Source: an uncultured Mycoplasmatota bacterium
GTDB taxonomy: Bacteria > Bacillota_I > Bacilli_A > RF39 > UBA660
NCBI GenBank assembly: GCA_946630615.1
Contig: CAMOYX010000004.1
Coordinates: forward strand, 1-34,916
Direction of reading: 5' to 3'
DNA length: 34,916 nucleotides
Part shown: positions 11,004-34,916 of the stretch, piece by piece
Numbering within the stretch: position 1 is the stretch's first letter
Layout: the number at the start of each line of letters is the position of its first letter
The notes under the pieces: model-generated
The model's database searches: none
The model's input: only the letters and a program-made list of their open reading frames with translations
Told to the model about the DNA's origin: nothing
Program-made: the position numbers and the translations under genes

Positions 11004-11004
11004 C

Positions 11005-11424: not shown

Positions 11425-11428
11425 GAGT

Positions 11429-11797
11429 TTACTCCCTTCCTAGGTATTTTTTAGCTAATGTATACATTCTTCCTATCTCTTGAACAAATTCATTAAAGTT
11501 AGTATCTATATATGCTTTATCGCCGTTTTTACCAGCCATTTCATGTGCAAGTCCTAACTCAGCAAGTTTCATAAATCCTAAGTATTTAGAATCACTCTTG
11601 AAACTATGAGCAATAATAGCATAGTTAGCTAAATCTCCACTTTCTTTATAATTCTTTAAATTATTAAAATTTGACTCAATGTCAGTAATGAAATCTCCTA
11701 AAGTTTCATCATACATTTCTTGGTCTCCTAATAATTCTAGACCATGTTCTAAGTCTACCCCATTACTCTTTAGTAATTCTATGTCTTTCATAAACAT
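11429..11797 (-). CDS. Stand-alone Hpt (histidine phosphotransfer) domain protein
   Basis: 122 aa alpha-helical; AHSFKSDSKYLGF matches the Hpt AHxLKGxS motif; next to REC gene. Confidence 0.85.
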   Translation of the reverse strand: MFMKDIELLKSNGVDLEHGLELLGDQEMYDETLGDFITDIESNFNNLKNYKESGDLANYAIIAHSFKSDSKYLGFMKLAELGLAHEMAGKNGDKAYIDTNFNEFVQEIGRMYTLAKKYLGRE

Positions 11798-14800: not shown

Positions 14801-17800
14801 CAGCATTACCATTAACTACAGAAGTATTACATCCACCATAGATATTTCCACCAATATCAAGTCCAGTAACATTTACTGTTGCACTAGAAGTTATAGAGTT
14901 TTCTACACCAATAGTACCAGAGTTACCACCCGCAAATAAGTTTCCATTAATCTTAGTATTTCCTGAAACATTAATTATTGATTTTCCATTAACACTAGCG
15001 GCATTACCACCACCAAATGCACTACCTAAAATCTTAGTATTAACTATATTTACAGTTGTATTTGAATTAACATTACCTCTATTACCTCCACCATATACGT
15101 CTTCATGAATATTTGTATTAGTAATAGATACATTTGCATTTGTATTAGTAGTAGAGTTATTACCTCCACCATATACATTATTAATTTTCTTAATATTAGT
15201 AATAGAAATATTATTTACACCAGTAGGAGCATAATTACCTCCACCATAAATATTTCCATAAGAACCACTCTTTAATAATGTAATATTAGCATTACTTGTT
15301 AAACCATTTTGGTTATTACCACCATAAATATTATCTACTTTAACAAAATTATTATTACTTGAAGTAACTATTCCTATATCACTAGCTTCTTTATTAGTAT
15401 AAATATGGAATGTAACAGTTCTACTTTGATTTGCATAAATAGTAATTGGAGCATTAGGATTATATAAACTTACTTCATCAAAATACCACATGCCATCTTC
15501 ATGAGTAATATTTGCTCCACCCCAGTTATCTGCAAGTACTGCATTAGGATCATTTATAAATATACTAGCAACATAATCATTTAAATCACTAGAAGTATTA
15601 TTAGTAGCAGTAATACTTACTTCAACATAATTACGATAAGTTGAATCAGGATTATAATTCATTACATTAAGTGATGAAGTTAAACCTATTCCTTCAGTTG
15701 TAATAGATTCATAATCACTAGGTTCATCTAATGTAACACTAGGAAGTGTAGGAATATAATTTGGATAACCTTGTCCTATTATAATATCCTTTAACTTATA
15801 ATGAGATAAATTATTTCTACTAGTATAATCTGGCAAAGCACCAAGATTTGGACTATAACTATTTTTAATAACAAAATATATTGATGAAGTACTATGTGCA
15901 GGAATTGATATCTCACTAGTAGTTTCATAATCAATAGTTAATGTTATATATTTATTCCTACTATTACTACTTCTAGTTCTTATATTAGTGTATAAATTTG
16001 GAGAAGAACTAGTACTATCAACATAATAACCATTTCTAAAGGAATTTGAGTTTTGCCATGCAACATATACATTAGCATAACCATCTACTCCAACCATTTG
16101 TTTATTAGTATTATTAGTATAAGTTAAAGTAACAGTATACTCAGTAGTAGAAGTTTGAGAAATATTAATTGAAGGAGTTACATTTCCATCATTACTATAA
16201 GTTTCACTTTCTCCTTCACTAATAGTTTTATATGGAGTTAAAGTATTAAAATCACTAGGTAAATTATTAGAAGTAGCATTAAGAATGTTACTTGTTGTAA
16301 CATTACCACTTTGATTTGCCCCACCATAGATATTAGTTATTTCACCATTATATAGATTAACATTTGTTGTAGTAGCACCAGCTTGGTTACCACCACCATA
16401 TACATTAGTAACATCAGTACCATTTAAATATACATGTGTAGTACTAACAGTTGCAGCGTTACCTCCACCAAATATATTACCTACTGGATCATCTCCATTT
16501 TTATTTGCATAAACAAATGACTCAGTAGTTGAAGCAGCGTTACCTCCACCATAAATATTATCGGCATCTCCACCATTAAAGTATACATAAGTTGTGCCAG
16601 ATGATGCACCACTACCTTTAGATCCACCATACACACTACCAAATTCACCATCATATACCCTAACCTTAGCAAGTGTTGTGCTACCACCTTCATTGTTACC
16701 ACCATAAATTGATGAAGCTTCACCACTTAAAACTACAACAGAAGATTCATTAACAGTACCACTTGTATTAGATCCACCAAATAAATTATTAACAATTGTA
16801 CTACCATCTAAATAAATAAATGTTTGAGGTTGACTTGTGGCATTACCACCACCAAAGGCATTACCTACTACACCACCATGTAATAATACAGTTGAGTTTA
16901 ATTCAGGGTAACCTTTTTTATCATTACCACCAAATACTCTACCAATATTACCACCAAGTACATCAACTATTACATCTCCATATACATGAGGAGTATAAGT
17001 ATTATCACCTTCTGCTCCACCAAATACATCACCTGTAACAGTACCAGAATATACATTAACTTTTGTAGTAGCATTTCTATTAGCAGTTGATGATGAGCCA
17101 TTAACTACACCAAAAGCACTACCACCATAAACTTTATTGATAGTTAATTTAGAGTTATCTGTTTCACCATTTACTCCAACATTAACTAATACATTTCCTT
17201 CTACGCCAGTGTTATTACCTTCACCACCACCGTAAACTCCTGTATTTACACTACCTGTTTTTAAATTAATTATAGTATCTCCATAAATAATACCAGAAAT
17301 ATTAGATCCACCATAAATAGAACCTCTAACACTTCCACCATCTAAAGTAATATTAACTTCACCTAAAATATTTGAAGAACCAGTTCCGTTTTGGTTACCA
17401 CCACCATAAACTGATCCAAGTACAGTACCTCCTAGTAACTTAATCTTAGTTTCACAAGAACTACCAGTACTTGTAATACCTGTTGCAGCAAAGTTTCCAC
17501 CACCATAGATATTGCCTCTAATAGTTGCGTTATCATTAACAATGATATACGAATTTTCAGCACTACCTACATTTGTACTAGAACTTCTTCCAGCACCAAT
17601 TCCAAATACAGATCCTGCTGTAACATCATACCTAGTAGCTTCATTACTTACTAATGTTTCATCACCAGCTTCAAAGTTACCACCTAAATATAGGTATGTA
17701 TCATCATTAATCTGAGCATTCATATTACTTAAATCTACTGTAGAACTTCCATTTGAAGCTCCAAATAAACCATAATCAACTTTACCACCAGTAGCTTGAA

Positions 17801-20537
17801 TTATACGGTTACCATAACTTTCAACACGTCCTGCACCGCCAAATAAACTACCAACTTCTCCACCTTTCATATAAATATAAACTGTAGAAATATTTTGTTG
17901 ACTTGATTTAGTACCAGGGCCACCATTCAAAGTATTAACATATCCACCTTCAACAATAACCCTTAACTTTGTTGTAGCCATGCTACCATAAAGACCAGAA
18001 ACATATATACTCTGAGTATAATCAGTTGCAGATAAACCACTACCAAATGTACCACTCTTAACTATTTGAGTTACTCCAAAAGTAGCATTATCTCCATTTA
18101 AATTATTATAATAATGAGCCATTGTAGTTTCATAAACTTTTAAATCGTCTTTATTATTTTTAACTCTATCATAATCATTACCATAAGTAGCAATTACTAA
18201 AGGATTATCAAATGTTGTATTTGTACTAGTATTACAATCAGTAGCAGAAATAAAATAATAATCACCAGATTCAACTATTAAATGATACTTACTATCTGAC
18301 TTAGTACCAGAGTTATTTCCACCAGCTACATAATAAGCATTACGATAACTACCATTATTAGTAATACCTCTACCTATTTTTAAGTTATGTAAGTTACCAT
18401 ATATTGCAGCAGAGTTACTTGAACTATTTGCACTACCAGAAGAACTAATACTACTTGTAGTATAAAGTTTTACATACTCAACTCTAGTATCAGTATAGGC
18501 TTTAATATAGCTATTATTCATATTATAGTAGGCATTATTTCTTCTATCTATTCCATTATAATAACTAGTTAAAGTAAATGGCTTAGTACTTGACCAAGAA
18601 GAACCTGTACCAGTATCTAAATAAACTATATTAGTGTCTCTTGTAACAAAATAATAATAAGTTTTATTCTCATCAAATATATTTTCATTACCATTACTAT
18701 CATAGTAATTTAATAAAGTAAATGTTCCACATCCATTATAGTTTGTACAAGAACTTGTAGTTGAACTAGGTCCTGTATAGAAACCTGCCATATTAATACC
18801 ATCATACTTAGGATCTATTCTTCTTTCGACTAACTCTGTATCATAACTTGGAGTACTCACTTGACTCATACCATAACTACCAAGTTGATAATATGTTAAA
18901 TTAGGATCATACTCTTCTCCAGCTTCATGAAGTGTATAGGCATCACAATTATAATAATCATAACCCCACCATCCACCATAACCAGTTCTATAACAATAAT
19001 CACTTTCAGAATAAGGATTTCCATATTCATTCAAGTACCCATATGCACTTTCATTTAAATTTAATTCAGTATAAGTATAATAATCTCTTGATAATTTATA
19101 ACTGTATATTTCTTCGATAGCATCAACCTTAACAAATCCAGCACTATCTAAAGCATTAATAGCACTATTAATATCAGAATATCTACTTACAGTAGCAGCT
19201 GGATGATATAACCATGATGCTGTAAATGTAACATTAATATCTTTTGGTTTACCACCAGAGTAACTTACAGGTATAGTAGCTTTTCTAGTAAAGTAACTAC
19301 TATCTAAACTTAAAGTAATATCATTATCTTCTGTAATCCAACCATTAAATACATAATCATCTGGTCTTCCTGCAAATGGATTATCAATTAAATCAATAGT
19401 AATACTATTACCATCAACTGGATAATATTTATAATAAACTAACTTACTTTGTTCTTCATCATAACTAATATAACCAGTCTTATTATTAAATGTACCATCA
19501 TAAGTTATTTGAACTCTTACTAAATTAGAATCATTATAATAATTCTTATTATCCATTGTAGGAGTTCCATAGTCAGTACTTGTAGTGCCACTAGTATAAT
19601 TCAATCCTTTGTAATAATAGTAATCAGAATCCAAATCATTAATATAGACTGTATCATCTTCTACACCACTATTATGTAAGGTAATTACATTAGTCATAGG
19701 AGATTTTAATAAAGGAGCTCTAATTGGATTTAAAAGATTATAACTACTATTATTTGAATTAATAGATAAAGACATACCTTCTTCATTATAAGTAAAAGTA
19801 TATGTATTATCTTCATTTAAAGTATCTATACTATCTTCTTTATATAAAGTAGTATTTTCTACTTCATTTTGACTAAACACCTTTGTATATTCACTATCAG
19901 TAGTAGTTTCATATAACTTAGTACCATTAGTATCTAAATAAATATTATTTAATTTAGAATTAGTAATTTCTTTAGCTATAATGTATGAATTACCATCAGT
20001 TACTGTTGTACTAACTTCACCACTAATAATTATATTTTCCAACTTAGCATTAGTTAATTTATCTGATATTAAATAACTATTACTTTTAGTTAAATTAGAT
20101 TTAATATTTTTAATTTCTATATTTTTTAAAGTACCTTTAAAGTTTCTAAATAAACCTTCTTCTATATCTCTATCTTCAATTAAAATGTTATATATTGCAT
20201 ATCCATTACCATCTATAACACCACTAAAGTTTTCAATTGAAGTAATTTTATTATTACCTAAATTAATATTACCAGTTAACTTATAATATAAATTTAAGTA
20301 AGAATCATCTGAAGCTAAGATGTTTTTAAAATAAATAAATTCATTAGCATTACTAATTAAATAAGGATTGTCTTTAGTACCAGAACCACCTAAGAAGTTA
20401 AGTGCAACACTTTCTCCATCCCAAGCACTTCCATCAAGTTCAGCTTTAGTATTAGTAGTATTAAACTCATATAAAAGGAATATAGATACTACTAATAATA
20501 AAACTGTTAATATTTTATTTATCTTTTTATTATTCAT
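11889..20537 (-). CDS. Giant exported beta-helix-like repeat protein (YGGGN repeats)
   Basis: 2882 aa; N-terminal signal/TM KILTVLLLVVSIFLLYEF; GTKDNPYLISNANEFIYFKNIL; about 26 [IV][YF]GG[GS]N-type turns in two blocks; SD aggaggg; no LPXTG motif or C-terminal TM. Confidence 0.9.
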   Translation of the reverse strand: MNNKKINKILTVLLLVVSIFLLYEFNTTNTKAELDGSAWDGESVALNFLGGSGTKDNPYLISNANEFIYFKNILASDDSYLNLYYKLTGNINLGNNKITSIENFSGVIDGNGYAIYNILIEDRDIEEGLFRNFKGTLKNIEIKNIKSNLTKSNSYLISDKLTNAKLENIIISGEVSTTVTDGNSYIIAKEITNSKLNNIYLDTNGTKLYETTTDSEYTKVFSQNEVENTTLYKEDSIDTLNEDNTYTFTYNEEGMSLSINSNNSSYNLLNPIRAPLLKSPMTNVITLHNSGVEDDTVYINDLDSDYYYYKGLNYTSGTTSTDYGTPTMDNKNYYNDSNLVRVQITYDGTFNNKTGYISYDEEQSKLVYYKYYPVDGNSITIDLIDNPFAGRPDDYVFNGWITEDNDITLSLDSSYFTRKATIPVSYSGGKPKDINVTFTASWLYHPAATVSRYSDINSAINALDSAGFVKVDAIEEIYSYKLSRDYYTYTELNLNESAYGYLNEYGNPYSESDYCYRTGYGGWWGYDYYNCDAYTLHEAGEEYDPNLTYYQLGSYGMSQVSTPSYDTELVERRIDPKYDGINMAGFYTGPSSTTSSCTNYNGCGTFTLLNYYDSNGNENIFDENKTYYYFVTRDTNIVYLDTGTGSSWSSTKPFTLTSYYNGIDRRNNAYYNMNNSYIKAYTDTRVEYVKLYTTSSISSSGSANSSSNSAAIYGNLHNLKIGRGITNNGSYRNAYYVAGGNNSGTKSDSKYHLIVESGDYYFISATDCNTSTNTTFDNPLVIATYGNDYDRVKNNKDDLKVYETTMAHYYNNLNGDNATFGVTQIVKSGTFGSGLSATDYTQSIYVSGLYGSMATTKLRVIVEGGYVNTLNGGPGTKSSQQNISTVYIYMKGGEVGSLFGGAGRVESYGNRIIQATGGKVDYGLFGASNGSSTVDLSNMNAQINDDTYLYLGGNFEAGDETLVSNEATRYDVTAGSVFGIGAGRSSSTNVGSAENSYIIVNDNATIRGNIYGGGNFAATGITSTGSSCETKIKLLGGTVLGSVYGGGNQNGTGSSNILGEVNITLDGGSVRGSIYGGSNISGIIYGDTIINLKTGSVNTGVYGGGEGNNTGVEGNVLVNVGVNGETDNSKLTINKVYGGSAFGVVNGSSSTANRNATTKVNVYSGTVTGDVFGGAEGDNTYTPHVYGDVIVDVLGGNIGRVFGGNDKKGYPELNSTVLLHGGVVGNAFGGGNATSQPQTFIYLDGSTIVNNLFGGSNTSGTVNESSVVVLSGEASSIYGGNNEGGSTTLAKVRVYDGEFGSVYGGSKGSGASSGTTYVYFNGGDADNIYGGGNAASTTESFVYANKNGDDPVGNIFGGGNAATVSTTHVYLNGTDVTNVYGGGNQAGATTTNVNLYNGEITNIYGGANQSGNVTTSNILNATSNNLPSDFNTLTPYKTISEGESETYSNDGNVTPSINISQTSTTEYTVTLTYTNNTNKQMVGVDGYANVYVAWQNSNSFRNGYYVDSTSSSPNLYTNIRTRSSNSRNKYITLTIDYETTSEISIPAHSTSSIYFVIKNSYSPNLGALPDYTSRNNLSHYKLKDIIIGQGYPNYIPTLPSVTLDEPSDYESITTEGIGLTSSLNVMNYNPDSTYRNYVEVSITATNNTSSDLNDYVASIFINDPNAVLADNWGGANITHEDGMWYFDEVSLYNPNAPITIYANQSRTVTFHIYTNKEASDIGIVTSSNNNFVKVDNIYGGNNQNGLTSNANITLLKSGSYGNIYGGGNYAPTGVNNISITNIKKINNVYGGGNNSTTNTNANVSITNTNIHEDVYGGGNRGNVNSNTTVNIVNTKILGSAFGGGNAASVNGKSIINVSGNTKINGNLFAGGNSGTIGVENSITSSATVNVTGLDIGGNIYGGCNTSVVNGNAVIRIGSAVSDDTMAKGDIIINGTVFGGGEANSSGDANFDFKSYAVMNGTDVKIDGESYLDNGFAFTLKGSIFGSGNALLTKGDAIVYLANIGSITNISRNISIQRATRVTMDNVVMELSGAEDSTNDYSSVKYSLNRIDELILVNSSTLLVRENANMLKSFKSMSRIKGVLVNETVTINDGEHVVTNGSVNRVLIRSEKVLNVTTNQQATAYGVVSGMAFMGMYNVSSTGSISMGLYSSEYDNGDAANAGLLITGGTYILGLHSENHDITKDGFYTNSLNQDGTRIVTDYVVPTPPEAEYYMWAIGVQTDKIEITLEASKYSSLGTLSQPMSLYPYGGTEYRVVGFNADGLLEGVEVVDSSIIPKIAPIGTEPDQKIGLSMKAETSEWTFNGSTDFFSTNHGSYDGTTYYKNDITNSAPKFNFYLYHSKNIRQNKDLGNVVITLQVKYPKNEFEYELKYLRITVNINTIVFDLEDAYDASITYGKKYDFPAATDVNITKNSQFTAYFSLFTDGDPYVYGEVGEENTYKRVLTLTKALAPGTNITLIDSSSDKVGTNYYYYTITEADYNYFVNTLSYDAQVELPFSKFIRMDSTDPNNHYDDHLNDILYYYEDEVATNEEFLFIFDFANANVDSSLLNVTNNIGIELQKQNGTTLRTTLGIKQEIMKYTLYENSNINLSLNVTTSEGNIRYDQDYKMNLAIEPTYPDAGGGVKVVDTNYESSNMGLNITLVDSMDTQISGDALSGASITYDGNVYHADATGVFRIKVGEKVSKTTPKLTFNTTESLPVGDYTIFIKVFASQDGLHDANDMASNTREIPVTLLSNDNVIKVSVNDKSKIVHASDGKTLNGSKNIIVYIASSMRLRNPNLRLEIQRRSVNSIDSTSYSNVTYDNLFSTNLTLMANSGVFGLVPINPNEYFVTNNIDTTNSFTYTLADNPHSGTYRLVYSLYDNNQLIDSDEEYIIVLEDEVSN
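14690..15330 (-). repeat. C-proximal block of YGGGN-coding degenerate repeats (about 9 units)
   Basis: NIYGGNN, NIYGGGN, NVYGGGN, DVYGGGN, SAFGGGN, NLFAGGN, NIYGGCN, TVFGGGE, SIFGSGN. Confidence 0.8.
16300..17950 (-). repeat. N-proximal block of YGGGN-coding degenerate repeats (about 17 units)
   Basis: Recurrent [NSD][IV][YF]GG[GSA][NE] turns, e.g. NIYGGGNAAS, NIFGGGNAAT, NVYGGGNQAG. Confidence 0.8.
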
Positions 20538-20554: not shown

Positions 20555-21634
20555 CTAATACATTTCGCTGTCTAAGAATCTTCTAGCATCTATGTAATCT
20601 TCTACTTCTTTCAAGCTAACGTTTAGTTTCTTTGAAAAACCTTGAATAGCTAAATTCACATTAACCAAATCATCTTGGTTATAATTCTTTAAAGTATTAA
20701 AGTCTTTATCAACCATTATTTTATACTTTAATACTTTATAAGTAGCATCAAAGAACTCTTCTCTATGATATAAAATAGAAAGTATCATAATCTCTAAATA
20801 AACTGTAATCGGCATTACATAAAGTCTATTTCTAAGACTATTACTAAATCCTATATCATTAAATTTATAATCATATTTTTCAGTAAATATTGGATTATCT
20901 AAAGTGTAATTAAGTTCAGATACACTACCGGATAATAGATTTAATGTTAAAGCATATAAGAATTTTAACTTATCTATTTCACTTGAACTAAATCTCTTCT
21001 CTGGATGATTTAAAGCTAGTATCTTTTGTACATGTCCTACAAAAGTAAGCTCTAGTTTTCTTTTACTACCACTTAAGATATCTAGTTTTAATTTACTTGG
21101 TTTTATAAGTCTCTTCTTAGAGTTATTCTTCTTAGCATCTTCTTGCATTACTTTAGTAAGTATTTTATCAAAATTTAAGAAACTAAATATTATAAATAGA
21201 ATAATAATAACTCCAACAATTTTAATAAGAGTAAATAAACTAAAATGGAATACTACCTTACCTACAATTTGATCTTTAACTATAGGATTATCATTAGTGT
21301 TATTTGCATCGCCTTTAGTTGTATAAGTATCACCACTAATACATACAATTCTATGAGTTATATATTCATTATCTTCTCTAAAAGTAATAATATCCTTTTC
21401 ATTATAAGTATCATTTAGTGAAACGATAACTACATCATTTACATCTAATTCATCTCTCATTGAACCTGTTGAAACGATAAAGTATGTATATCCAAATACA
21501 TCAACATAATCCTTCTTTAATAACTCTGTTGAGATAAAAGCATATAATGCAAATGTAATAATAATAGAGAAAATAACATAACCAAATACACTAGCAACTT
21601 TGTGTAGTTTATTCATTTGCATCACCACCATCAT
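20555..21634 (-). CDS. SipW/ER-type signal peptidase I with a long C-terminal cytoplasmic extension (true start possibly 21616)
   Basis: FIVSTGSMRDELDVNDVVIV, EYITHRIV (catalytic His instead of Lys), TKGDANNTNDNPIV; TMs on both sides; about 190 aa extra C-terminal region. Confidence 0.88.
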   Translation of the reverse strand: MMVVMQMNKLHKVASVFGYVIFSIIITFALYAFISTELLKKDYVDVFGYTYFIVSTGSMRDELDVNDVVIVSLNDTYNEKDIITFREDNEYITHRIVCISGDTYTTKGDANNTNDNPIVKDQIVGKVVFHFSLFTLIKIVGVIIILFIIFSFLNFDKILTKVMQEDAKKNNSKKRLIKPSKLKLDILSGSKRKLELTFVGHVQKILALNHPEKRFSSSEIDKLKFLYALTLNLLSGSVSELNYTLDNPIFTEKYDYKFNDIGFSNSLRNRLYVMPITVYLEIMILSILYHREEFFDATYKVLKYKIMVDKDFNTLKNYNQDDLVNVNLAIQGFSKKLNVSLKEVEDYIDARRFLDSEMY

Positions 21635-23522: not shown

Positions 23523-24605
23523 CTATTCATTGTCTAAGCTGAAACCAATGTTGAAGTCCATAGATCCACCTGAAGCTGTGTTTTCACAGTCGATGTCTTG
23601 TCCTTCTACCCACATGTATACTCTAACTTTAGTAACACCTTTGTCTAAAGCAAATACGTTAGTACCACCTTCAGCACCATTGTTAGTAGAAATGAATTTA
23701 TAACCACTTCTAGTATCATTAATAGCTGTAACGATTGTAGAATCAGTAGTATCTAAATCTACACCATCAGTAATAGCAGCCTTAACACCATAGTATGGAC
23801 ATACAGTAGCACCAGTTACAGTACCAGTAATTGATGAGTAATTGTCATTACCATTAGAAATACCAGCAGCTGTGTGAACATTATTATTTGGTTCCCAAAT
23901 AATTGAGTTCTTTTGTTGAACTACTTCATCTGTACCAGTTTCATCAGTTACAGTAATATTAGCAGTTGTATTAGCAGTAGCTTTTAAAGCTTGCAAGTCA
24001 GCAACAGCAGTACCACTTGAAGCATTACCTTCAATTACAAAACCAATTCTTGATGAGTTTTGAATACCTGAAGCTGCACTTGTAGCAGTTAAAGCAACAC
24101 CACTTGAGTTAGTTAAATAAATCTTAGATGGTTTATTAACTGAGAAGAAAACGTCAAATGCAACATATTTACCATCAGCACTAGCTCTTCCACCAGCTGG
24201 AGTAGCAGTTTCATTAGCAATTTGAGTAGCAGTTAATTTATAAACACCGGCATCATTAGCAGCAATTAAACCATCGTACATATCGAAATATCCGTTAGGT
24301 CTAATAGTACCATCAGTAGATACTGGTGATAATGTTGTAGGAATTTGATTTACTGCAGTAGCATATCTTGCAGGTTCAATAATATCCTCATTTGATAATA
24401 TAGTCTTCCAGTTTGTAGCATCAGCTGAAATTTGTAAACCATTTTGTGCTGAAACATTAACATTGATTGAGTTAATAGAAACAGTACGGTTAGCTGTGAA
24501 CCATGCATAAGTACTTGATACTAATGCTGAACCAGTAAGTACAACTAATAAAATGGCTAAAAATATACGTCTTTGTTTTTTATTCTTTTTAGTTTTATTA
24601 TTCAT
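23523..24605 (-). CDS. TasA/camelysin-type exported fibre-subunit candidate
   Basis: 360 aa; signal segment LLVVLTGSALVSSTYAWFTANRTVSINSINVNVS; Ala/Thr/Gly/Asn-rich; C-term VRVYMWVEGQDIDCENTASGG; SD gaaggag. Confidence 0.75.
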   Translation of the reverse strand: MNNKTKKNKKQRRIFLAILLVVLTGSALVSSTYAWFTANRTVSINSINVNVSAQNGLQISADATNWKTILSNEDIIEPARYATAVNQIPTTLSPVSTDGTIRPNGYFDMYDGLIAANDAGVYKLTATQIANETATPAGGRASADGKYVAFDVFFSVNKPSKIYLTNSSGVALTATSAASGIQNSSRIGFVIEGNASSGTAVADLQALKATANTTANITVTDETGTDEVVQQKNSIIWEPNNNVHTAAGISNGNDNYSSITGTVTGATVCPYYGVKAAITDGVDLDTTDSTIVTAINDTRSGYKFISTNNGAEGGTNVFALDKGVTKVRVYMWVEGQDIDCENTASGGSMDFNIGFSLDNE

Positions 24606-24640: not shown

Positions 24641-25390
24641 TTAAGAAATATGCTCTTCCTTAAAATCCATATGCATCTTTAGTTCCCCGCCGAGTAAATC
24701 ATTTAAGCAATCAGGATCATCTCCCTCAATCCATATTACGACTGTATATCGATCTATAGATCCAGGTGTGAATTCCTCCCTTTCTTCTAGTACCGCAATC
24801 CCCTCATCCTCAGAATAAAATGGTTTAGTATCTACTTCTGGTTCATGTGTAGTTCCATTTCTCTTTGCATACACTGTAGGATTACCATTACGGTAAATCA
24901 TAATTCTTATGGCTTTATCAACGTTTCTAATTGAATCATCGATATCAGTCTCATACCAATAATTTACTGTTTCACTTCCTCTATTCATTACATAGAATGA
25001 GTAAGCAAAATAGTTTGGCCCATTATGACTTCCGTCTGCTTCTGTATCTACATCTTCACTTATCCAATGTTTAGATATATTATCCATATAATCTAGTGAA
25101 ATAGCAGATAACTCTTTTTGAGTATCATCTGTTTTACCAGTTTCAGATAAATATATGTTCTTATCATTGGCTAGATTACGATCTAGAGAAACAGTAAAGC
25201 TTCCTACCTTAAAGATTACATAAAGGAAAAAGTACGAAACTGCAAGTATCATTAGAAGAAATATAAACACGATTCTTACAATTCTTGCAAAAATCTTACG
25301 CCTATGAACTTTTTCGGCTGTAACTTTTACATAGCCTAAATTTTTCACGTTATTTCCTTTCTTACTTTTTCTTTTCACATAGCGAGTCAT
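24641..25390 (-). CDS. Membrane-anchored exported protein sharing the C-terminal WxEGxDxDC motif with the 360-aa protein
   Basis: 249 aa; TM IVFIFLLMILAVSYFFLYVIF then KVGSFTVSL; C-term YTVVIWIEGDDPDCLNDLLGG. Confidence 0.75.
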   Translation of the reverse strand: MTRYVKRKSKKGNNVKNLGYVKVTAEKVHRRKIFARIVRIVFIFLLMILAVSYFFLYVIFKVGSFTVSLDRNLANDKNIYLSETGKTDDTQKELSAISLDYMDNISKHWISEDVDTEADGSHNGPNYFAYSFYVMNRGSETVNYWYETDIDDSIRNVDKAIRIMIYRNGNPTVYAKRNGTTHEPEVDTKPFYSEDEGIAVLEEREEFTPGSIDRYTVVIWIEGDDPDCLNDLLGGELKMHMDFKEEHIS

Positions 25391-26081: not shown

Positions 26082-26107
26082 AACCCTAAGCAATTAAGCT
26101 TAGGGTT
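26082..26107. terminator. Bidirectional terminator between convergent 197-aa and 772-aa genes
   Basis: AACCCTAAGC-AATTAA-GCTTAGGGTT perfect 10-bp stem; contains the 772-aa gene stop codon. Confidence 0.8.
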
Positions 26108-28418
26108 CTTTATTTATACATGTAACACTAATACTTCCGTAATTATTATTTATATAACTAAATAAGTAACTATTATCATCACACTTAAATGATATATTTC
26201 TAAGACGAGAAGCTCCATAAAATATATCCCTAACATATTGAATACTTGAAATATTAGAAGTATTAAAAGAAGCTAAATCAATTTCATATAATGAATAACA
26301 AGACTTAAACATGCTAGCAATATATTCAGCACTAGAAGTATCAAAATTTGAAATATTTAAACTAGTTAAAGAACCACAAGAGTCAAACATACGTGTAAAA
26401 TGTGTAACTTTACTAGTATCAAAATTTGATAAATCTAAAGTAGTTAATTTACTACAACCATTAAACATTAAGGCCATATTAGTAACTTTACTTGTATCAA
26501 AATTTGACAAATCAAGACTATTTAAAGAATTACATCCAGAAAACAAACCACCCATAGAAATTACACTATTAGTATCAAAGTGGGACAAATCAAGATTTGT
26601 TATCAAGGATAACCCTGCAAACATATACGATATGTCTTCAACATTTGAAGTATTAAAATTTGATACATCTAAAGATTTCAAAGAAGAAGATCGTTCAAAC
26701 ATCCATCTCATATTTGTAACACTTGAGGTATCGAAACTTGATAAATTTAAACTAATAAGATTATCACAATAGCTAAACATACTAGACATATTAGTAACTT
26801 TTGAAGTATCAAAATTTGATAAATCTAAACTAATAAGACTATCACAAGAACTAAACATAGTAGCCATATTAGTAACACCTGAGGTAATAAAGTTAGATAA
26901 ATTTATTGTCTTTAAATTTTTGCAATTATAAAACATAGCACCCATATCTAATACATTAGCTGTATCAAAATTTGATAAATCCAAAGAAGAAAAGCTACTA
27001 TTAGAAAACATAGCACTCATATTTGTAACTTTACTTGTATCAAAATGTGATAAATCTAAATTATTAATAGACGAATAAGCAAACATTGCATCCATATTAG
27101 TAACATTACTTGTATTAAAATTTGAAAAATCTAATTCAATATTTTTTAAATAATAAAACATTTGAGACATATCTCTAACATTAGATGTATCTAAATCATT
27201 AAGATTTAAATAAACTAAATTTTTTAGATTACTAAACATATTTGACATATCAGTCATCTTGCTTGTATCAATTCTTGATATATCAATTGTTTCTAAATTT
27301 TCAAAAAAATTATTCCCATAAGTAGAATTTTCAAACTTATCTTGCTGCATAAAAATCTTTTCTGCAGTAGACCAGTAGTACAAAGTATTGCCATCAACCC
27401 AAGCATAAGTAGGAACACCACTTTCAGAAATTAAGTATGCATTATTTATAATTTCATCATTTACTAAAGCATTATATGGTCGTACAGATGTAATAAAAGG
27501 GCTTGCTACAAGTTCTCCATATTCATTAGTTTCATAATTATCAACATAATTATAAAAAGCATAAGGTTCTAAAAAAGATGAACCACTTATATTTAAGTAC
27601 TTTGCAATTAAAGTATGATTATTATCTTTTAATAAATGAGTATTATTAGAAACATAACCATCTTCATTTCCATCTAAATACCAACCTAAAAATAAGCTTT
27701 GATCCTTAGTTGGTTGAGGTAAATTACCATAAGTATCTCCTTCAACTAAATATAAATAATTACTATCTATATATCCTCCATCAGGATCTAAAGTAACTTT
27801 AACTTGTTTAGCTGGAACACTAACCACAGTTACTTTAGAATACCATTCTTTATCCTCGCCTTCGTTATCTTCTAAATCATATCTTATATTGGCATATAGA
27901 TCATATACATGAGTTTCATTAGATTTAATTGAATAACTATAAATCTTATGTGCTTTAATTGCATTATTAAGAGTTGGAGTAACTTCTTCAAGTTCAGATA
28001 AAATCATTTCATTATCAAAAAAGCTTTCTAATTGATTGTTTTCATAATATTCATCATATTCATCTGCTATTGTAGGTTTTAAATCAAATAAATTATCTCC
28101 ATACATATATAAATAAATATATGAACTATCAAGTGTGCTTCCTTCTAGTGTTTCCATATTAACTTGATAATTAATAACAGTATTACAAGTATTAGTTATA
28201 CTAAAAACATATCTTCCATCATTATAACCAGGGCCTATTCTTCTAAGATCAACTGAATCAGATAATTCTTTATATTCAATATTTAAACACCCAGATCTAA
28301 CTATATTACTATTACTTACATGTGTACTAGCCCAATAAGCATAAGTAACACTAATACTAGTAACAATAGCTATTACTCCAATTATTAAAGATAAAATAAT
28401 CACTTTCTTCCTATTCAT
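26100..28418 (-). CDS. BspA-type (DUF285) leucine-rich-repeat surface protein with SipW-type signal segment, SGC...NTC module and one InlB B-type repeat
   Basis: 772 aa; ISVTYAYWASTHVSNSN; VKVTLDPDGGYIDS...LFLGWYLDGNEDG; about 14 units LDLSNFDTSKVTNMSSMFSYCDNL. Confidence 0.92.
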   Translation of the reverse strand: MNRKKVIILSLIIGVIAIVTSISVTYAYWASTHVSNSNIVRSGCLNIEYKELSDSVDLRRIGPGYNDGRYVFSITNTCNTVINYQVNMETLEGSTLDSSYIYLYMYGDNLFDLKPTIADEYDEYYENNQLESFFDNEMILSELEEVTPTLNNAIKAHKIYSYSIKSNETHVYDLYANIRYDLEDNEGEDKEWYSKVTVVSVPAKQVKVTLDPDGGYIDSNYLYLVEGDTYGNLPQPTKDQSLFLGWYLDGNEDGYVSNNTHLLKDNNHTLIAKYLNISGSSFLEPYAFYNYVDNYETNEYGELVASPFITSVRPYNALVNDEIINNAYLISESGVPTYAWVDGNTLYYWSTAEKIFMQQDKFENSTYGNNFFENLETIDISRIDTSKMTDMSNMFSNLKNLVYLNLNDLDTSNVRDMSQMFYYLKNIELDFSNFNTSNVTNMDAMFAYSSINNLDLSHFDTSKVTNMSAMFSNSSFSSLDLSNFDTANVLDMGAMFYNCKNLKTINLSNFITSGVTNMATMFSSCDSLISLDLSNFDTSKVTNMSSMFSYCDNLISLNLSSFDTSSVTNMRWMFERSSSLKSLDVSNFNTSNVEDISYMFAGLSLITNLDLSHFDTNSVISMGGLFSGCNSLNSLDLSNFDTSKVTNMALMFNGCSKLTTLDLSNFDTSKVTHFTRMFDSCGSLTSLNISNFDTSSAEYIASMFKSCYSLYEIDLASFNTSNISSIQYVRDIFYGASRLRNISFKCDDNSYLFSYINNNYGSISVTCINKEP
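26200..27310 (-). repeat. About 14 tandem ~24-aa (72-bp) BspA/DUF285 repeats
   Basis: Recurrent SNFDTSKVTNMxxMFxxCxxLxxLDL. Confidence 0.9.
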
Positions 28419-28441
28419 ATAACCACTACCCTATTATCCAA

Positions 28442-28450
28442 ATTATAACA
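28442..28450 (-). promoter_or_regulatory. Extended -10 promoter (TGTTATAAT) of the 772-aa gene
   Basis: Minus strand tttGTTATAATttggataatagggtagtggttatATG with TG at -14; nearly identical upstream of the 609-aa paralog. Confidence 0.6.
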
Positions 28451-28469
28451 AATATTAAAGTACTAAAAA

Positions 28470-28494
28470 AGAACTTATATAAAATATAAGTTCC
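28470..28494 (-). terminator. Intrinsic terminator downstream of the 609-aa gene
   Basis: GAACTTATATAAAATATAAGTTC hairpin with minus-strand T-tract. Confidence 0.7.
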
Positions 28495-28509
28495 TTTAGA
28501 ATTCTTGTA

Positions 28510-30339
28510 TTAAAGACATGTAATACTAATACTATTATAATTTGAATTAATATAATTAATTAAAACACTACAATTATCACAATTAATAGTTATGTTAGTT
28601 AAATCCCAACAATCGCCAAATATATATTTAATATTTTCAGTATTTATTATTGAAGATGTATCAAAATTTGTTAAATCTAACGTTTGAAGATTTTCACATT
28701 CATAAAACATACTGATCATGCTTGTAACATTATGAGTATTAAAATTTGAAATATTTAATGATTTCAAAGATGAGCAACCTGCAAACATCTTATCCATAAC
28801 TGTCACATTAGAAGTATTAAAACTAGTTAAATCTAATGTTTGAAGACCCTCACATCCCCAAAACATACCATACATTTCAGTTACACTACTTGTATTCCAA
28901 CCTGTAAGATTCAAAGAAGATAAACCAGTACAACTTTCAAACATTTCACTCATTGATGTAACTTTACTAGTATTAAAATTAGATAAATCTAAACTAGTTA
29001 ACGAATAACATTGCCAAAACATATTATACATACTAGTAACATTGCTTGTATTAAAACCTGATATGTTTAAATCACTTAAATTATAGCAATTACTAAACAT
29101 AAAATTCATACTAGTAACATTACTTGTATCAAAATTAGATAAATCTAAACTAATCAAATTTGATAACGATTGAAACATTCCTGACATATCTGTTACTCTA
29201 CTTGTATCAATTCTACTAAAATCCATTGTTTCAAAAACAAAATAACTTGACGCTCCTGATTCAGGGCCATTAAACATATCTCTTTGCATATAAATCTTTT
29301 CAGCACTAGACCAATAGTATAAAGTTTCATCTTCAACCCAAGCGTATGCATCTACACCACTCTCAGAGATATTAACTGCATTATTAATAATATCCTCAGA
29401 AACATAACCACTATAAGGAGCAAAGTATTTAATATAATCTCCACTATTATTAGAGAAATTATGAAAAGCATAAGGTTTTAATATAGAAGTTCCTGATAAT
29501 GGCATATATTTTGCTTTTAATTTATGATCAGAATTGTTAATTAATAATGAATTATTTGTAACGCTTATAGTTTCATCATCATATGAATACCAACCAACAA
29601 ATAATGCATCTTCTTTCTCAGGAACAGGTAAATTACCATAAGTATCTCCCTCAGTAAAATATAAGATTCTATTATCTAATTCTCCACCATTAGGATCTAA
29701 AGTGACTTTAACTTGTTTAGCTGGAACACTTGTCACAGTAACCTTAGAATACCACTCTCTTTCCTCTTCTTGATTATCTTCTATACTTCCATCAACCCAA
29801 GAAAAAATTTCATATAAATGAGTATCATTAGCTTTAATTAATTTTCTATTAATTAAATAAGAACTAATAGCATTAGATAATGTTGGAGACATTTCTTCCA
29901 AATCAGATAATAAATAATCATTATCTATAAATAAATCATTATCTGCATCATTTTCATTATAAATGTAATTATCCCAATCATCTTTATCGTTGATTCTATA
30001 ATCATGAGTATTATAACCAACAACAGCTAATTTTATACTAGATAAATCAATAGTAGTACCTTCTAATGACTCTAAATTAACCTGATAATTAACATCGTTA
30101 CTACAAGTATTAGTAATACTAAAAATATACTTATTACTAGCATCAAAACCTGGTCCAACTCTTCTAGCATTTATTGCATCTGTAATATCCTTATACTCTA
30201 TATTAAGACATCCAGATCTAACTACATTACTATTACTTACATGAGTACTAGCCCAATAAGCATAAGTAACACTAATACCAGTAACAATAACTATTACTCC
30301 AATTATTAAAGATAAAATAATTACTTTCTTACTCTTCAT
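28510..30339 (-). CDS. BspA-type (DUF285) leucine-rich-repeat surface protein, paralog of the 772-aa protein
   Basis: 609 aa; near-identical N-terminus KKVIILSLIIGVIVIVTGISVTYAYWASTHVSNSNVVRSGCLNIEYK; about 8 DUF285 repeats; B-type repeat ALFVGWYSYDD. Confidence 0.92.
   Translation of the reverse strand: MKSKKVIILSLIIGVIVIVTGISVTYAYWASTHVSNSNVVRSGCLNIEYKDITDAINARRVGPGFDASNKYIFSITNTCSNDVNYQVNLESLEGTTIDLSSIKLAVVGYNTHDYRINDKDDWDNYIYNENDADNDLFIDNDYLLSDLEEMSPTLSNAISSYLINRKLIKANDTHLYEIFSWVDGSIEDNQEEEREWYSKVTVTSVPAKQVKVTLDPNGGELDNRILYFTEGDTYGNLPVPEKEDALFVGWYSYDDETISVTNNSLLINNSDHKLKAKYMPLSGTSILKPYAFHNFSNNSGDYIKYFAPYSGYVSEDIINNAVNISESGVDAYAWVEDETLYYWSSAEKIYMQRDMFNGPESGASSYFVFETMDFSRIDTSRVTDMSGMFQSLSNLISLDLSNFDTSNVTSMNFMFSNCYNLSDLNISGFNTSNVTSMYNMFWQCYSLTSLDLSNFNTSKVTSMSEMFESCTGLSSLNLTGWNTSSVTEMYGMFWGCEGLQTLDLTSFNTSNVTVMDKMFAGCSSLKSLNISNFNTHNVTSMISMFYECENLQTLDLTNFDTSSIINTENIKYIFGDCWDLTNITINCDNCSVLINYINSNYNSISITCL
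28640..29235 (-). repeat. About 8 tandem BspA/DUF285 repeats
   Basis: LDLSNFNTSKVTSMSEMFESCTGLSSLNLTGWNTSSVTEMYGMFWGCEGL and similar. Confidence 0.9.
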
Positions 30340-30387: not shown

Positions 30388-30417
30388 AAAAGCAATAACT
30401 TACTAGTTATTGCTTTT
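30388..30417 (-). terminator. Intrinsic terminator at the end of the right-hand operon
   Basis: AAAGCAATAACTTACTAGTTATTGCTTT hairpin overlapping the 252-aa gene stop. Confidence 0.7.
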
Positions 30418-31165
30418 GAGTTACTTCTAATTGTAATCTTATTCTTAAACAAGATTCACCGCCACTTTGAACTGCACTACACTTATTACCATAATATGAG
30501 TCAGCATCATCACTTTCTACATAAAGTCCAGTACTAACTAAACTATTAAAGTTTAATGCACTAACTACAACTGGACTATATATATCTCCACTCTTTCTAT
30601 AGTATTCATAACCTAGTTGAGAATCATATATAAAGTCATTATTTAGTTTAAAGAATGGTTCACTTGATTCATAAGGCCAGTTAACTTGTATAGATACAAC
30701 TAAAGTATTACCTGGATTAATTACAGCTGTTGTAGGTGTAAATAATACATGAAATGGATAACCATACTTTAATTTATTTAAAGAGTCAGCTTCAGATATA
30801 TCAGTAGGCACTGTATAAGTACTATTTAATATACTATACTCTTTCATTATTACATTATAATCAGCAGCTATCTCACCCGAGTTAGATATAACAATTCTTT
30901 TTTCATATGGATCCATTCCTGGTTTCATATCGATATCTAATACTAACTCTCTAATCTCTTCATTATCCTTAGTAAAGTTGATATCCCAACTCATAACTGA
31001 TGCTTGAATTGATGTACTAGTCTTAGTAAAGAATACAAACCAAGCATAAGTATTAGCAAGAGCCACTATTCCAAATACTGCTAAAGTTCTAACAAGTATT
31101 GCAAATCTTCTTCTACTTTTCTTACTACGAAAATCTATCTTAAGATTCTTTTTCATCACCATCAT
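30407..31165 (-). CDS. TasA-like exported protein with SipW-type signal segment (true start probably 31156)
   Basis: 252 aa; LAVFGIVALANTYAWFVFFTKTSTSIQASVMSWDINFT; MKPGMDPYEKRIVISNSGEIAADYNVIM; overlaps the signal peptidase gene 3' end. Confidence 0.82.
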   Translation of the reverse strand: MMVMKKNLKIDFRSKKSRRRFAILVRTLAVFGIVALANTYAWFVFFTKTSTSIQASVMSWDINFTKDNEEIRELVLDIDMKPGMDPYEKRIVISNSGEIAADYNVIMKEYSILNSTYTVPTDISEADSLNKLKYGYPFHVLFTPTTAVINPGNTLVVSIQVNWPYESSEPFFKLNNDFIYDSQLGYEYYRKSGDIYSPVVVSALNFNSLVSTGLYVESDDADSYYGNKCSAVQSGGESCLRIRLQLEVTQKQ

Positions 31166-31700
31166 CCTTATTAAATATAAAGTCTAAAATATCTAAAGTA
31201 ATTAAAATAACAATTGGTACAAATAAACAGAAAAAGAACACATATTGATTTTGTAATACCTTAATATGTACAGTTAAAAACCATAATTTTGATACTACTT
31301 TACCTTGTACTTGAGAGTATTCAATCACTGGATCAGGAACTTCATTTGCAACTCCTTGTGTTTGAATTAATGTCTTTCCATCTTCTTCTTTAATCTCAAT
31401 AATACGGTGAGTAACTATCATTCCTGCTAGTTCTGCTTTACTACCTTTATAAGTAATGTCATCTCCTACTTTTAACTCACTTTTATCTACTTCTTTAATT
31501 AATATAATGTCTCCGACATTATAAACTGGTTCCATAGATCCAGTAGCTACTTGATATATTCTAAATCCAAGTACATTTCCATTTGAAGAAAACTTTTGAA
31601 ATAATGTAAATGATGCATATAGAATAATAAAACCATAAAATATAAATCTAAATAATCCTATAAATATTTTAAATGGTAAGCTGTTTAATATCTTCTTCAT
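31140..31700 (-). CDS. SipW/ER-type signal peptidase I
   Basis: 186 aa; YQVATGSMEPVYNVGDIILI, GMIVTHRIIEI (Ser-His), TQGVANEVPDPVIEYSQVQGKV; TMs at both ends. Confidence 0.93.
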   Translation of the reverse strand: MKKILNSLPFKIFIGLFRFIFYGFIILYASFTLFQKFSSNGNVLGFRIYQVATGSMEPVYNVGDIILIKEVDKSELKVGDDITYKGSKAELAGMIVTHRIIEIKEEDGKTLIQTQGVANEVPDPVIEYSQVQGKVVSKLWFLTVHIKVLQNQYVFFFCLFVPIVILITLDILDFIFNKDDGDEKES

Positions 31701-31715
31701 AATTTCCTCTTTCTA

Positions 31716-32828
31716 CTAATTTAAAGTATCTAATAAATTTAGAATTCTATTATGATTACTTAACATAGCATCTTGATAAATAAAGCATATCTTTTCTCTT
31801 CTTTCATTTACTTCACTTATTTTACTATCTAATCTATTAGTAAATATATCTAAGATATACTTTCTATCTAAATCTTCATCAAATTCTAATATATTTTGTA
31901 ATATTTCATTAAAGCTTTGAATAATTAAATCTCTTCTAGTCATATGTTTATTAGTAATTAAAGATTCACTTGTTTTATAAGCTAATGAGAATATTTCTTC
32001 ATATTTTTCTTTTAATAAGCCTTGATCTAAGTAACTTTCTTTTTCCTTAACTTGATTAGACGCTAAACCATCAAATGATTGAATATAGTTCCATAGAATA
32101 GTTGCTTGTTGGAAGTTAGGGTTCTTAGCAATTAGGTTTGTTTTTCTAATTGGACTACGTACTGGAGCTACATGTAATTTATTAAGTGTTTTATATAGTT
32201 CAGTTGCTGCTATACCATCTACATGTAGTTTTAAAGTAGCAAGTCTTTCAGGTAAAGGAATATTAGATCCTTTACCTTTATTAGGTATCTTCTTTTCTTC
32301 ATTTGAAATAAACTCTACATTAATATCTAGATTTCTATCACCTATTTTAGAATTACCATGATACTTAAATGACTTATGATCTTTAGAATAAGAATTTCCT
32401 ATTCCTTCTTTAACTCTTTGAGCATAGAAGCTCATCATATTTTGACATAAAGTATAAATAAATCTATTTTCATAAGTATCTAAACTTTCATTACGATTAA
32501 TATTTAATATCTTAGAAGGCTTAACATCTCCATTATCCTCTATCTTTTGAATAAAGTTTGTATGTTGAGTTAAGTGTATAACAGATTCACTTGTTACTTT
32601 TCTTGCAAGCTCTATTTTAACTACTTCACCTTCATTTACAATAAATCTCTTTGGATTCATTAAGATATTTTCTATATAAGGCATAGCAGTTTCAAACATA
32701 TCTAACCATGTTAAATCTACTTCTCTAGATTCAAAATTAGTATCTACTTGTAAGGCATCATTAATATTATTCATTAATTCAACGCTTTGAAAGTCTTTTA
32801 CTTCATTTTCTACTACATTCTCATTCAT
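31716..32828 (-). CDS. DUF2357-like (McrC-partner-type) protein without an obvious nuclease motif
   Basis: 370 aa; SLDTYENRFIYTLCQNMMSFYAQRV; position immediately after the McrB-like ATPase. Confidence 0.6.
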   Translation of the reverse strand: MNENVVENEVKDFQSVELMNNINDALQVDTNFESREVDLTWLDMFETAMPYIENILMNPKRFIVNEGEVVKIELARKVTSESVIHLTQHTNFIQKIEDNGDVKPSKILNINRNESLDTYENRFIYTLCQNMMSFYAQRVKEGIGNSYSKDHKSFKYHGNSKIGDRNLDINVEFISNEEKKIPNKGKGSNIPLPERLATLKLHVDGIAATELYKTLNKLHVAPVRSPIRKTNLIAKNPNFQQATILWNYIQSFDGLASNQVKEKESYLDQGLLKEKYEEIFSLAYKTSESLITNKHMTRRDLIIQSFNEILQNILEFDEDLDRKYILDIFTNRLDSKISEVNERREKICFIYQDAMLSNHNRILNLLDTLN

Positions 32829-32829
32829 A

Positions 32830-34407
32830 CTAAATCATCTTCTTAAGTCTTAGTAGGTATTCTTTACATACCCCAAAGTGTTCTTTACCAAATTGTTGGT
32901 CTAAATACTTAACATATCCATCAATTTCATCACGAATATAAGCTAAGTTTAATTGTTCAAACTTACGTAAAATCTTCTTAGCTATAAAGTAATCTACACC
33001 ATCTACTTCAGCACCACCACAAGCTACATAGTTAGCTACAAAAATATGCATTTGTTTAACAATACGATTACCAAACGCAATACGGAAATGTTTAATAACA
33101 TAATTATCCATATCATTTATCTTGTCTATCATTTCTTTACTAATTGGGTGATCAATAGTTGCTTGTTTAAATAGACTTTCTAAATAACTATCATTAAGTC
33201 TCATTGGAGGCATATCAACTGGTTCAAATGCTGGGAACTTTTCATTGATATCTATTGGCATAGCACGGTCGTATACCTTATCTGTAACAGCAAATGTTGA
33301 ATCATCGTTATTGATTGTACCGATATACCACATATTACCTGGTATTTGTAATTTACCAGCTTTTAATTTAATTGGATCATCTGCCCATACTGAAGTAACT
33401 AATTCTACTACCCATTCATCACGACTTGGCATTTCTAGAATAGATAGCATTTCTGCGAAGTAGTACTCAACACGAGCGATATTCATCTCATCTAATACAG
33501 TTACATAAACATCATCAGTATATCCAGCTTCATATAAAGCCTTTAATACTTCTGTTTCATTAAACTTCTTAGTAAACTCGTTGAAATATCCAAATAACTC
33601 TGTTCTATCTCTCCAAGATGGTTGAACCGATGCGATAATAGCATCATGCATTATAAACTTACCCCATGCATAAGCAAGTGAAGTTTTACCTGTACCAGAG
33701 ATACCTTGTAAAATTACAAGTTTAGTACTTGCTAAGGCTGAAATAAATAATCTTATCATTTCAGTTGAATAGAAAAGTCTTAAATGATATCCAGAGTATT
33801 GTCTAAAATGTTCTACTAATTCTTCTAAAGAATAAGTACCATTGTAGTTTTCAATCTTGTAGTTACGATATTGATAATCTACTAAGCATAACTTAGCAAA
33901 TCTTCTATCTTGAATCTCTTTAAGAGCTTCATTATCGCTACTAGCTTCTTCAGTTGTAGATTCTTCATCTGTAGTATCACTAGCTGTATTAGTAATAGTA
34001 TCTACATTAGGACTCTCAGTAGGCTTTAATCCTAACTGAGAAACCTTCATAGCTAGTAAGTCAGCTTTCTCTGCTTCCATTGTAGCTACTTTCTCATTTA
34101 AACTACCTATCTCATTTAGTAATTCTTCCTGATCTACTATAGATTTTCTAATTCTTAATATTCTTCTAATTATAAAATAAATAATAAATGCTAAGGCACC
34201 AAGAACAATTGCCATTAAAGCAACTGCTGCAACAACAAGCACCCATTCAGGTCCTTCAAAGTCAGATGCATAATTCTTAACTGTAAACATATATTGATTA
34301 TAGTTAAACATTTGAATTATACCATTGCCTATTCCTTTTAAGATAATGAATAACCCATCAAAGAAAACAGACATAAATTCAAACAAAAATCTTAAAAACG
34401 TATCCAT
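32830..34407 (-). CDS. Membrane-anchored McrB-like AAA+ ATPase (dynein-related AAA_5 type)
   Basis: 525 aa; TM WVLVVAAVALMAIVLGALAFIIYFII + coiled coil; Walker A LQGISGTGKTSLA (33682-33705); Walker B VYVTVLDEMNIARVEYYFAEML; sensor region WYIGTINNDDSTFAVTDKVYDRA. Confidence 0.9.
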   Translation of the reverse strand: MDTFLRFLFEFMSVFFDGLFIILKGIGNGIIQMFNYNQYMFTVKNYASDFEGPEWVLVVAAVALMAIVLGALAFIIYFIIRRILRIRKSIVDQEELLNEIGSLNEKVATMEAEKADLLAMKVSQLGLKPTESPNVDTITNTASDTTDEESTTEEASSDNEALKEIQDRRFAKLCLVDYQYRNYKIENYNGTYSLEELVEHFRQYSGYHLRLFYSTEMIRLFISALASTKLVILQGISGTGKTSLAYAWGKFIMHDAIIASVQPSWRDRTELFGYFNEFTKKFNETEVLKALYEAGYTDDVYVTVLDEMNIARVEYYFAEMLSILEMPSRDEWVVELVTSVWADDPIKLKAGKLQIPGNMWYIGTINNDDSTFAVTDKVYDRAMPIDINEKFPAFEPVDMPPMRLNDSYLESLFKQATIDHPISKEMIDKINDMDNYVIKHFRIAFGNRIVKQMHIFVANYVACGGAEVDGVDYFIAKKILRKFEQLNLAYIRDEIDGYVKYLDQQFGKEHFGVCKEYLLRLKKMI

Positions 34408-34410
34408 TAT

Positions 34411-34916
34411 CTAATCCTCCCTTACATTCTCTATAAATACTTTCTTACCATAAGTAGATTCAAATCCCTTTAAATAATTAAGATCACCACTACTAACATT
34501 ATCTAAAAATAAATAAGTAATGTTAGGTAATTCATCTAAACTATCTAACTTAGTCTTTAAATCACTTATATGTCTAAAGTCTACTCTTAAACCTACTTCT
34601 ACTACCTCGCTTAATCTTCTTACCTTTAACTTACTTGTTTGATATTCTTTGTTATCAACTACAGGTACAATGTATCCAAAGCAATTAGATGTCATGTTCT
34701 CAAGTAACACAGCGTCTTCTATATCATTAGTAAAATGATAATCAAAGAAGTATCTTGTATAATCTTTCTTATAAGGTAAACCCTTTAAGAATTCTGTATT
34801 AATTAAATCTATTAAAGTTAAAGTTTTATGATAATTTAAAGCACTTGATAAAAATGCTTTATCAACTGCATTATTCTTAAACTTATATAATAAACCTAAC
34901 TTACATTCTAATTTAG
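34411..34916 (-). CDS. Hypothetical protein, 5'-partial: reading frame stays open to the right window edge
   Basis: Frame upstream of the listed 99-aa ORF (which starts at a GTG) translates without stop as KLECKLGLLYKFKNNAVDKAFLSSALNYHKTLTLIDLINTEFLKGLPYKKDYTRYFFDYHFTNDIEDA... Confidence 0.75.
   Translation of the reverse strand, partial: KLECKLGLLYKFKNNAVDKAFLSSALNYHKTLTLIDLINTEFLKGLPYKKDYTRYFFDYHFTNDIEDAVLLENMTSNCFGYIVPVVDNKEYQTSKLKVRRLSEVVEVGLRVDFRHISDLKTKLDSLDELPNITYLFLDNVSSGDLNYLKGFESTYGKKVFIENVRED

Follow-up and report, generated by a model that had tools for sequence, protein, structure and literature searches.

The contig CAMOYX010000004.1 of an uncultured Mycoplasmatota bacterium (GTDB lineage Bacteria; Bacillota_I; Bacilli_A; RF39; UBA660; assembly GCA_946630615.1) carries at one end a minus-strand operon in which a McrB-type AAA+ nucleoside triphosphatase (NTPase) and a DUF2357 protein are encoded together with a SipW-type signal peptidase and a TasA-like exported protein. 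The window analysed here, 34,916 nucleotides (nt), is the entire contig, which belongs to an 800-kb metagenome-assembled genome (MAG). The conserved surroundings of these genes make it highly probable, in our view, that the locus belongs to an operon for surface fibres rather than to a defence island. We propose that the membrane-tethered NTPase would act from the cytosol to control SipW-dependent export or assembly of the fibre, partly under cyclic di-GMP (c-di-GMP); we give this reading a probability of about 0.5, and the biochemical step at which the NTPase would act is one that we infer.

Components of the operon

Five minus-strand open reading frames (ORFs) were found at the coordinates given in the initial annotation, and their tight packing was likewise borne out, with gaps of 3 nt (34411/34407), 1 nt (32830/32828) and 15 nt (31716/31700), followed by an overlap of 26 nt (31165/31140) that shrinks to 17 nt with a start three codons further in. 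The putative terminator at the 3' end (30388..30417, minus strand) is real as a hairpin, having 13 pairs, a minimum free energy of -16 kcal/mol and a z-score of -4.9 against 200 shuffles. It was missed by a simple terminator scan, probably because the T-run sits partly within the stem. Judged by this layout, the AAA+, DUF2357, SipW and TasA-like genes are one packed operon closed by the hairpin. Because the window is the whole contig, the gene that precedes them (34411..34914) is cut off by the contig end and the start of the operon lies outside the view.

The AAA+ protein (32830..34407, 525 residues) is predicted to contain a transmembrane (TM) helix at about residues 58-76, a coiled coil at about 88-130 and the AAA+ core at about 210-400, followed by a C-terminal helical region. 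Walker A (GISGTGKT), Walker B (LDEMN), INNDD and the arginine of DRA are all kept in 16 aligned homologues from other genera, and nearly all related AAA+ sequences with a findable motif have NxD followed by D or E, which is INNDD in the window protein. When the family profile was compared with PDB, three sequences were matched, all of them McrB and none from another family; the NCBIfam McrB model is matched over residues 211-426 with an E value of 3e-7, far below the model cut-off. The prediction of one strong TM helix agrees with the earlier proposal that the ATPase is membrane-anchored. Since this helix is followed by a positively charged stretch (IIRRILRIRK), the AAA+ core should face the cytosol according to the positive-inside rule. 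Downstream of this stretch, residues 88-130 are rich in heptads. The N-terminus matches an FtsL profile weakly (E 0.035), and its likeness to FtsB comes from sequence features only.

The next gene (31716..32828) encodes a 370-residue protein of the DUF2357 (McrC N-terminal) type, which matches Pfam PF09823 with 41.5 bits (cut-off 23.3). A Pfam search at E values up to 1 did not find a PD-(D/E)XK nuclease (PDDEXK_7) in it. Its structural model, with a mean predicted local distance difference test (pLDDT) score of 86.7, contains a C-terminal helix of 48 residues (322-369), and the protein has no predicted TM helix. A fold search of this model against PDB gave no meaningful match, and the likeness to McrC is therefore one of Pfam family and not of fold.

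The SipW-type signal peptidase I (31140..31700, 186 residues; S26, Ser-His type) scores 93.6 bits against TIGR02228 (cut-off 51.85, E 1.1e-26). Its serine box, TGSMEP, and the histidine in THRI lie between TM helices at 12-30 and 154-172, which by the usual SipW topology would put the active site on the outer side of the membrane. The last gene (30407..31165) encodes an exported protein of 252 residues with a TM segment at 21-39 and the SipW-type signal ANTYAWFVF. This protein has no convincing family match, and none to the TasA or camelysin models in Pfam and NCBIfam; the label TasA-like denotes its signal, its size and its conserved operon position, not its fold. Its orthologues stand last in the operon in most loci of the host family.

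The truncated first gene encodes the C-terminal half (167 residues) of a conserved component here called UP. The fragment matches positions 174-336 of the 337 positions of a UP profile with an E value of 1.4e-19, the 54 rows of this profile including the fragment itself; after rebuilding without it the value is 9e-8. UP has no Pfam match and, as with the DUF2357 protein, is soluble by sequence.

Conservation in relatives and the defence alternative

The AAA+ gene is present in 25 of the 98 genomes of the host family, and a DUF2357 protein above the cut-off in 24, all of them within the AAA+ genomes (Fisher 5e-22); the sole AAA+ genome without it has its AAA+ gene at a contig end. The order AAA-DUF2357-SipW-TasA is repeated in about 18 genera of the family. 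Beyond these, a scan of GTDB genomes returned at least 546 relatives, of which the best 80 were analysed, coming from Bacilli, Oscillospiraceae and Lachnospiraceae MAGs, mostly from the gut. A SipW gene lies no more than five same-strand genes away in 118 of 127 loci of this AAA+ type vs none of 15 outgroup AAA+ loci, although the Fisher value of 2e-14 is only indicative, as some genomes were drawn twice and the loci share ancestry. The outgroup consists of a tandem AAA-DUF2357-AAA type, a 900-residue type and a soluble type. The SipW count is profile-based, and the SipW of locus L032 went uncounted because the ORF picker dropped that gene. Genomes with the AAA+ gene also have about twice as many SipW genes (4.5 vs 2.3 per genome, p 8e-6). 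Immediately upstream of the AAA+ gene, a UP homologue was found in 20 of 22 host-family loci and in 55 of 78 wider loci.

The initial annotation had placed the AAA+/DUF2357 pair in an exported-fibre operon, where it would remodel or assemble the fibres, and had named a defence module sitting there by chance as the alternative. The recurrent gene order and the SipW linkage uphold the placement in the fibre operon and rule out chance adjacency, while remodelling or assembly by the pair is still a hypothesis. Relatives consistently have the SipW and TasA-like genes and mostly no defence genes beside the pair, the reverse of the pattern that the initial annotation had named as a refutation, whereas it is the distant, TM-less AAA+ proteins that adjoin defence genes. 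Very few defence-library matches occur among 145 neighbours of SipW-linked AAA+ genes, which speaks against a defence island, compared with more among 76 neighbours of the outgroup types (DNA methylases, BrxL, PglZ and DUF2357 proteins with PDDEXK_7).

A defence module is nevertheless conceivable, namely a McrBC-like type IV restriction system or a membrane-acting abortive system that happens to share an operon with surface genes or whose nuclease has been lost. It would be in keeping with the McrB/DUF2357 ancestry, the methylases, BrxL, PglZ and PDDEXK_7 beside TM-less relatives, and the patchy occurrence within the host family. The AAA+ domain also matches the PADLOC candidate family PDC-M26A at 4e-36, and Bell et al. 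(PMC11090510) include the clade when taking a census of restriction systems. Nonetheless, no nuclease domain was found, the place in the surface operon is kept, defence genes are scarce among the neighbours, and relatives carry c-di-GMP riboswitch leaders (see below), so that we regard defence as very unlikely.

Exceptions to the SipW linkage include a second host-family subtype (L050-L052 and L055), in which AAA-DUF2357 is followed by a membrane protein of 420-440 residues whose DxDGDG repeats are of the calcium type; a signal peptidase I of canonical appearance is present at L050 as well. Two further loci, L085 and L092, have no SipW and have neighbours such as a thermonuclease-like protein, but at L085 the pair still precedes a giant membrane-anchored protein and a gene with a SipW-type signal. 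A possible, though decidedly unlikely, explanation is that the pair acts on large surface proteins, at their cytosolic portion, or on sites of the cell envelope, in fibre anchoring or placement, and not on SipW or the TasA-like protein. This idea draws on the recurrence of giant surface proteins as neighbours, also at the SipW-less L085, and on the TM helix and coiled coil of the AAA+ N-terminus, which resemble FtsL/FtsB (the weak match noted above; PMC11090510). The giant proteins are, however, less constant than SipW, and fusions of SipW with UP, described below, point to SipW.

In the AAA+ tree, a single group of 68 rows (94/95) unites the tandem type with the SipW-linked types and with a type of 610 residues that is likewise SipW-linked. 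The 900-residue and soluble types fall outside it, with long branches that leave the deep order unsure. The TM helix is absent in the soluble outgroup proteins and present in the SipW-linked, tandem and 900-residue types. Loci L194-L198 carry the tandem operons, which are membrane-anchored, have large exported-looking neighbours (about 700-1400 residues) but no SipW, and are perhaps a further surface-linked McrBC variant. At L204-L207, the 900-residue membrane-anchored McrB-type AAA+ is accompanied by a DUF2357 protein of about 515 residues in an ordinary gene context.

SipW-UP fusions, c-di-GMP and a possible mechanism

UP forms the C-terminal part of the SipW protein in 12 of 80 loci, where the TM helices and catalytic residues of SipW precede it. 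These SipW-UP fusions tie the AAA+ module to the signal peptidase at the level of the gene. Since UP follows the second TM helix in the fused proteins, it must lie on the cytosolic face if the SipW topology is the usual one. In a survey of 247 genomes from the class, UP turned up in the host family and nowhere else. The structural model of UP has a pLDDT of 92.5, and all of its top Foldseek matches are EAL enzymes (probability up to 0.98, E 5e-3 or worse), whereas profile-profile comparison with EAL gave a probability of 0.1, equal to the controls. UP as an EAL domain, suggested by the fold search and unsupported by the profile comparison, thus stays a lead. At L034, L038, L039 and L048, the same operon contains SipW-like proteins of about 170-180 residues that seemingly have no catalytic serine (pseudo-signal peptidases), encoded 5' of a gene for 310 or 538 residues.

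The connection with c-di-GMP comes from Bacilli families without UP, in which c-di-GMP-I riboswitches occur in 12 of 14 loci vs 0 of 9 outgroup loci (p 7e-5). They are single or, often, three in tandem (L178, L180, L181, L183, L184, L186, L187, L188, L189, L190, L191 and L193). Most of them lead the first gene of the SipW-AAA-DUF2357 operon, and often also a second, downstream unit of exported proteins. Across eight relatives, 18 of the 25 c-di-GMP-I riboswitches in the whole genomes sit at this locus, and in one family an EAL gene is found three genes downstream of the AAA+ gene. No such riboswitch was found at seven Clostridia loci. Within the host family a c-di-GMP link was not upheld: most PF00990 matches are ORFs of about 680 residues taken, by length only, for GdpP-type, and EAL genes are not significantly linked. 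The single c-di-GMP-I riboswitch of the host genome (L219:3177-3251; G000:C54) precedes a gene for an exported-looking protein that is cut by the contig end. For some relatives the link to c-di-GMP is accordingly firm; for the window it is no more than a lead.

The presence, at this locus in relatives, of riboswitches and of EAL genes, together with the weak structural likeness of UP to EAL enzymes, would also suit a signalling or regulatory NTPase. In that case, the pair would sense c-di-GMP or the envelope state and tune fibre expression or SipW activity without mechanical remodelling. We consider this rather unlikely, given that the module has no DNA-binding or receiver domain, that AAA+ hexamer motors with an intact arginine finger usually do mechanical work, and that the likeness of UP to EAL, poor in Foldseek E value, is unseen in profile comparison.

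For control of SipW-dependent export or assembly, the reading that we prefer, the following course may be envisaged. The AAA+ ring would be tethered at the membrane on its cytosolic side, and the DUF2357 protein would activate it as McrC activates McrB, without an attached nuclease. By way of UP, the ring might then act on SipW from the cytosol, or else on unprocessed TasA-like preproteins, and the outcome could be the timing of precursor release, cleavage and hand-over to fibre growth. Speculatively, UP may have replaced the c-di-GMP input of riboswitch or EAL in the host family.

Several observations weigh against this proposal. Only hydropathy and charge underlie the predicted topology. Of the 98 host-family genomes, 93 have SipW but only 25 have AAA+, so that the AAA+ protein is an accessory of some SipW loci and export works without it. 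No riboswitch was found in the host window or at seven UP-type loci tested, and the linkage of EAL with AAA+ within the host family is not significant (p 0.14). Moreover, known TasA fibres assemble extracellularly by donor-strand exchange, in an account that does not mention ATP (PMC9674648), and a cytosolic motor is for this reason not obviously needed.

A more far-reaching formulation is that a restriction-type McrBC motor has been reused as a c-di-GMP-responsive engine on the inner face of the membrane, powering or gating the dedicated signal peptidase and its TasA-like fibres, and that UP is an adaptor, EAL-like but degenerate, that SipW itself carries; in this full form we consider it doubtful. 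On the current view, the known fibres of the TasA type form extracellularly and draw on no energy source within the cell. That a cytosolic NTPase of the McrB type is conserved, and genetically linked to SipW and TasA-like genes, in a large number of uncultured Bacilli and Clostridia of the gut suggests that the export of a whole class of surface fibres includes a powered or gated step, and that a defence-type motor was reused in cell-surface biology. The riboswitches provide a regulatory handle and make the idea testable in relatives. The locus is also a warning: predictors of defence genes can label such loci as anti-phage, as a PADLOC candidate model did here.

Other genes of the window also relate to the cell surface. 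A second putative fibre operon, likewise on the minus strand, contains a TasA-like exported protein with a SipW-type signal (23523..24605), which scores 17.6 bits against TIGR04088, just below the cut-off of 19, and is linked to the 252-residue protein by hidden Markov model comparison (1.7e-5) over the signal region. A second SipW-type signal peptidase is encoded at 20555..21634 (minus strand), with a C-terminal extension of about 190 residues, TGSM and THRI motifs and 57.1 bits against TIGR02228 (cut-off as above). The gene at 24641..25390 (minus strand) encodes a homologue of the riboswitch-led first operon gene of other families, with phmmer values of 3.7e-32 and weaker to the L188, L181, L178 and L189 leaders. 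A giant exported protein of 2882 residues (11889-20537) adjoins the second SipW, and its homologues recur at AAA+ loci. Directly 3' of the main operon, the region 26100-30339 encodes a pair of surface proteins (772 and 609 residues) that have PARCEL/DUF285 repeats and SipW-type signals. At 9104-11797, inspection by eye points to a hybrid sensor histidine kinase, a response regulator and a small Hpt-like protein amid the surface genes, a possible regulator.

Comparison with known systems

In B. cereus the sipW-tasA-calY region, and in Bacillus subtilis the tapA-sipW-tasA operon, resemble the present operon in that a dedicated SipW adjoins the fibre-forming protein that it processes, in which aromatic residues follow the cleavage site. 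Neither is known to contain AAA+ or DUF2357 genes. TapA serves as the nucleator in B. subtilis, and the fibre protein of the window differs in matching neither TasA nor camelysin models. The BsaA-SipW locus of Clostridium perfringens is similar in having a SipW-linked extracellular matrix protein, in that case in Clostridia, and no AAA+ or DUF2357 protein is mentioned in the part of the abstract consulted (PMC7395162).

With McrBC type IV restriction (E. coli McrB 6hz4/6ut6 and McrC), the operon shares the McrB AAA+ core, the only PDB match, and DUF2357, which Bell et al. give as the N-terminal, McrB-activating domain of McrC (PMC11090510). It differs in having NxD instead of NxxD, a membrane anchor and no recognised DNA-binding domain, in its lack of a PD-(D/E)XK nuclease, and in its surface context.

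The closest known system is CoCoPALM, and the initial view of the operon as a new system has to be given up, since the association of such an AAA+ protein with signal peptidases was already named in 2024. One paragraph of Bell et al. describes CoCoPALM as McrB NTPases with the NxD motif that carry a fused FtsB-like part (TM helix and coiled coil) and are found in association with signal peptidases, leaving the function for later work (PMC11090510). It is the only prior mention of the association among the papers searched, none of which joins DUF2357 with SipW. The window AAA+ has the NxD motif followed by D (INNDD), the TM helix and the coiled coil, a DUF2357 partner, and a signal peptidase, SipW, two genes downstream. 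The paper states that the McrC homologue "usually" has a fused coiled coil, whereas the window DUF2357 protein is short and has its 48-residue C-terminal helix without a long coiled-coil tail; the word "usually" leaves membership possible. DUF2357 proteins of the Clostridia relatives have 500-890 residues and a long charged tail. The operon belongs to the CoCoPALM group and represents a Bacilli variant that has UP and in which the DUF2357 protein is short and lacks a nuclease. Compared with the main text, and allowing that some of these points may already be in its supplement, what appears to be new is the subtype with a short nuclease-less McrC and UP, the SipW-UP fusions, the TasA-like partners, and the EAL genes and c-di-GMP-I riboswitches in relatives.

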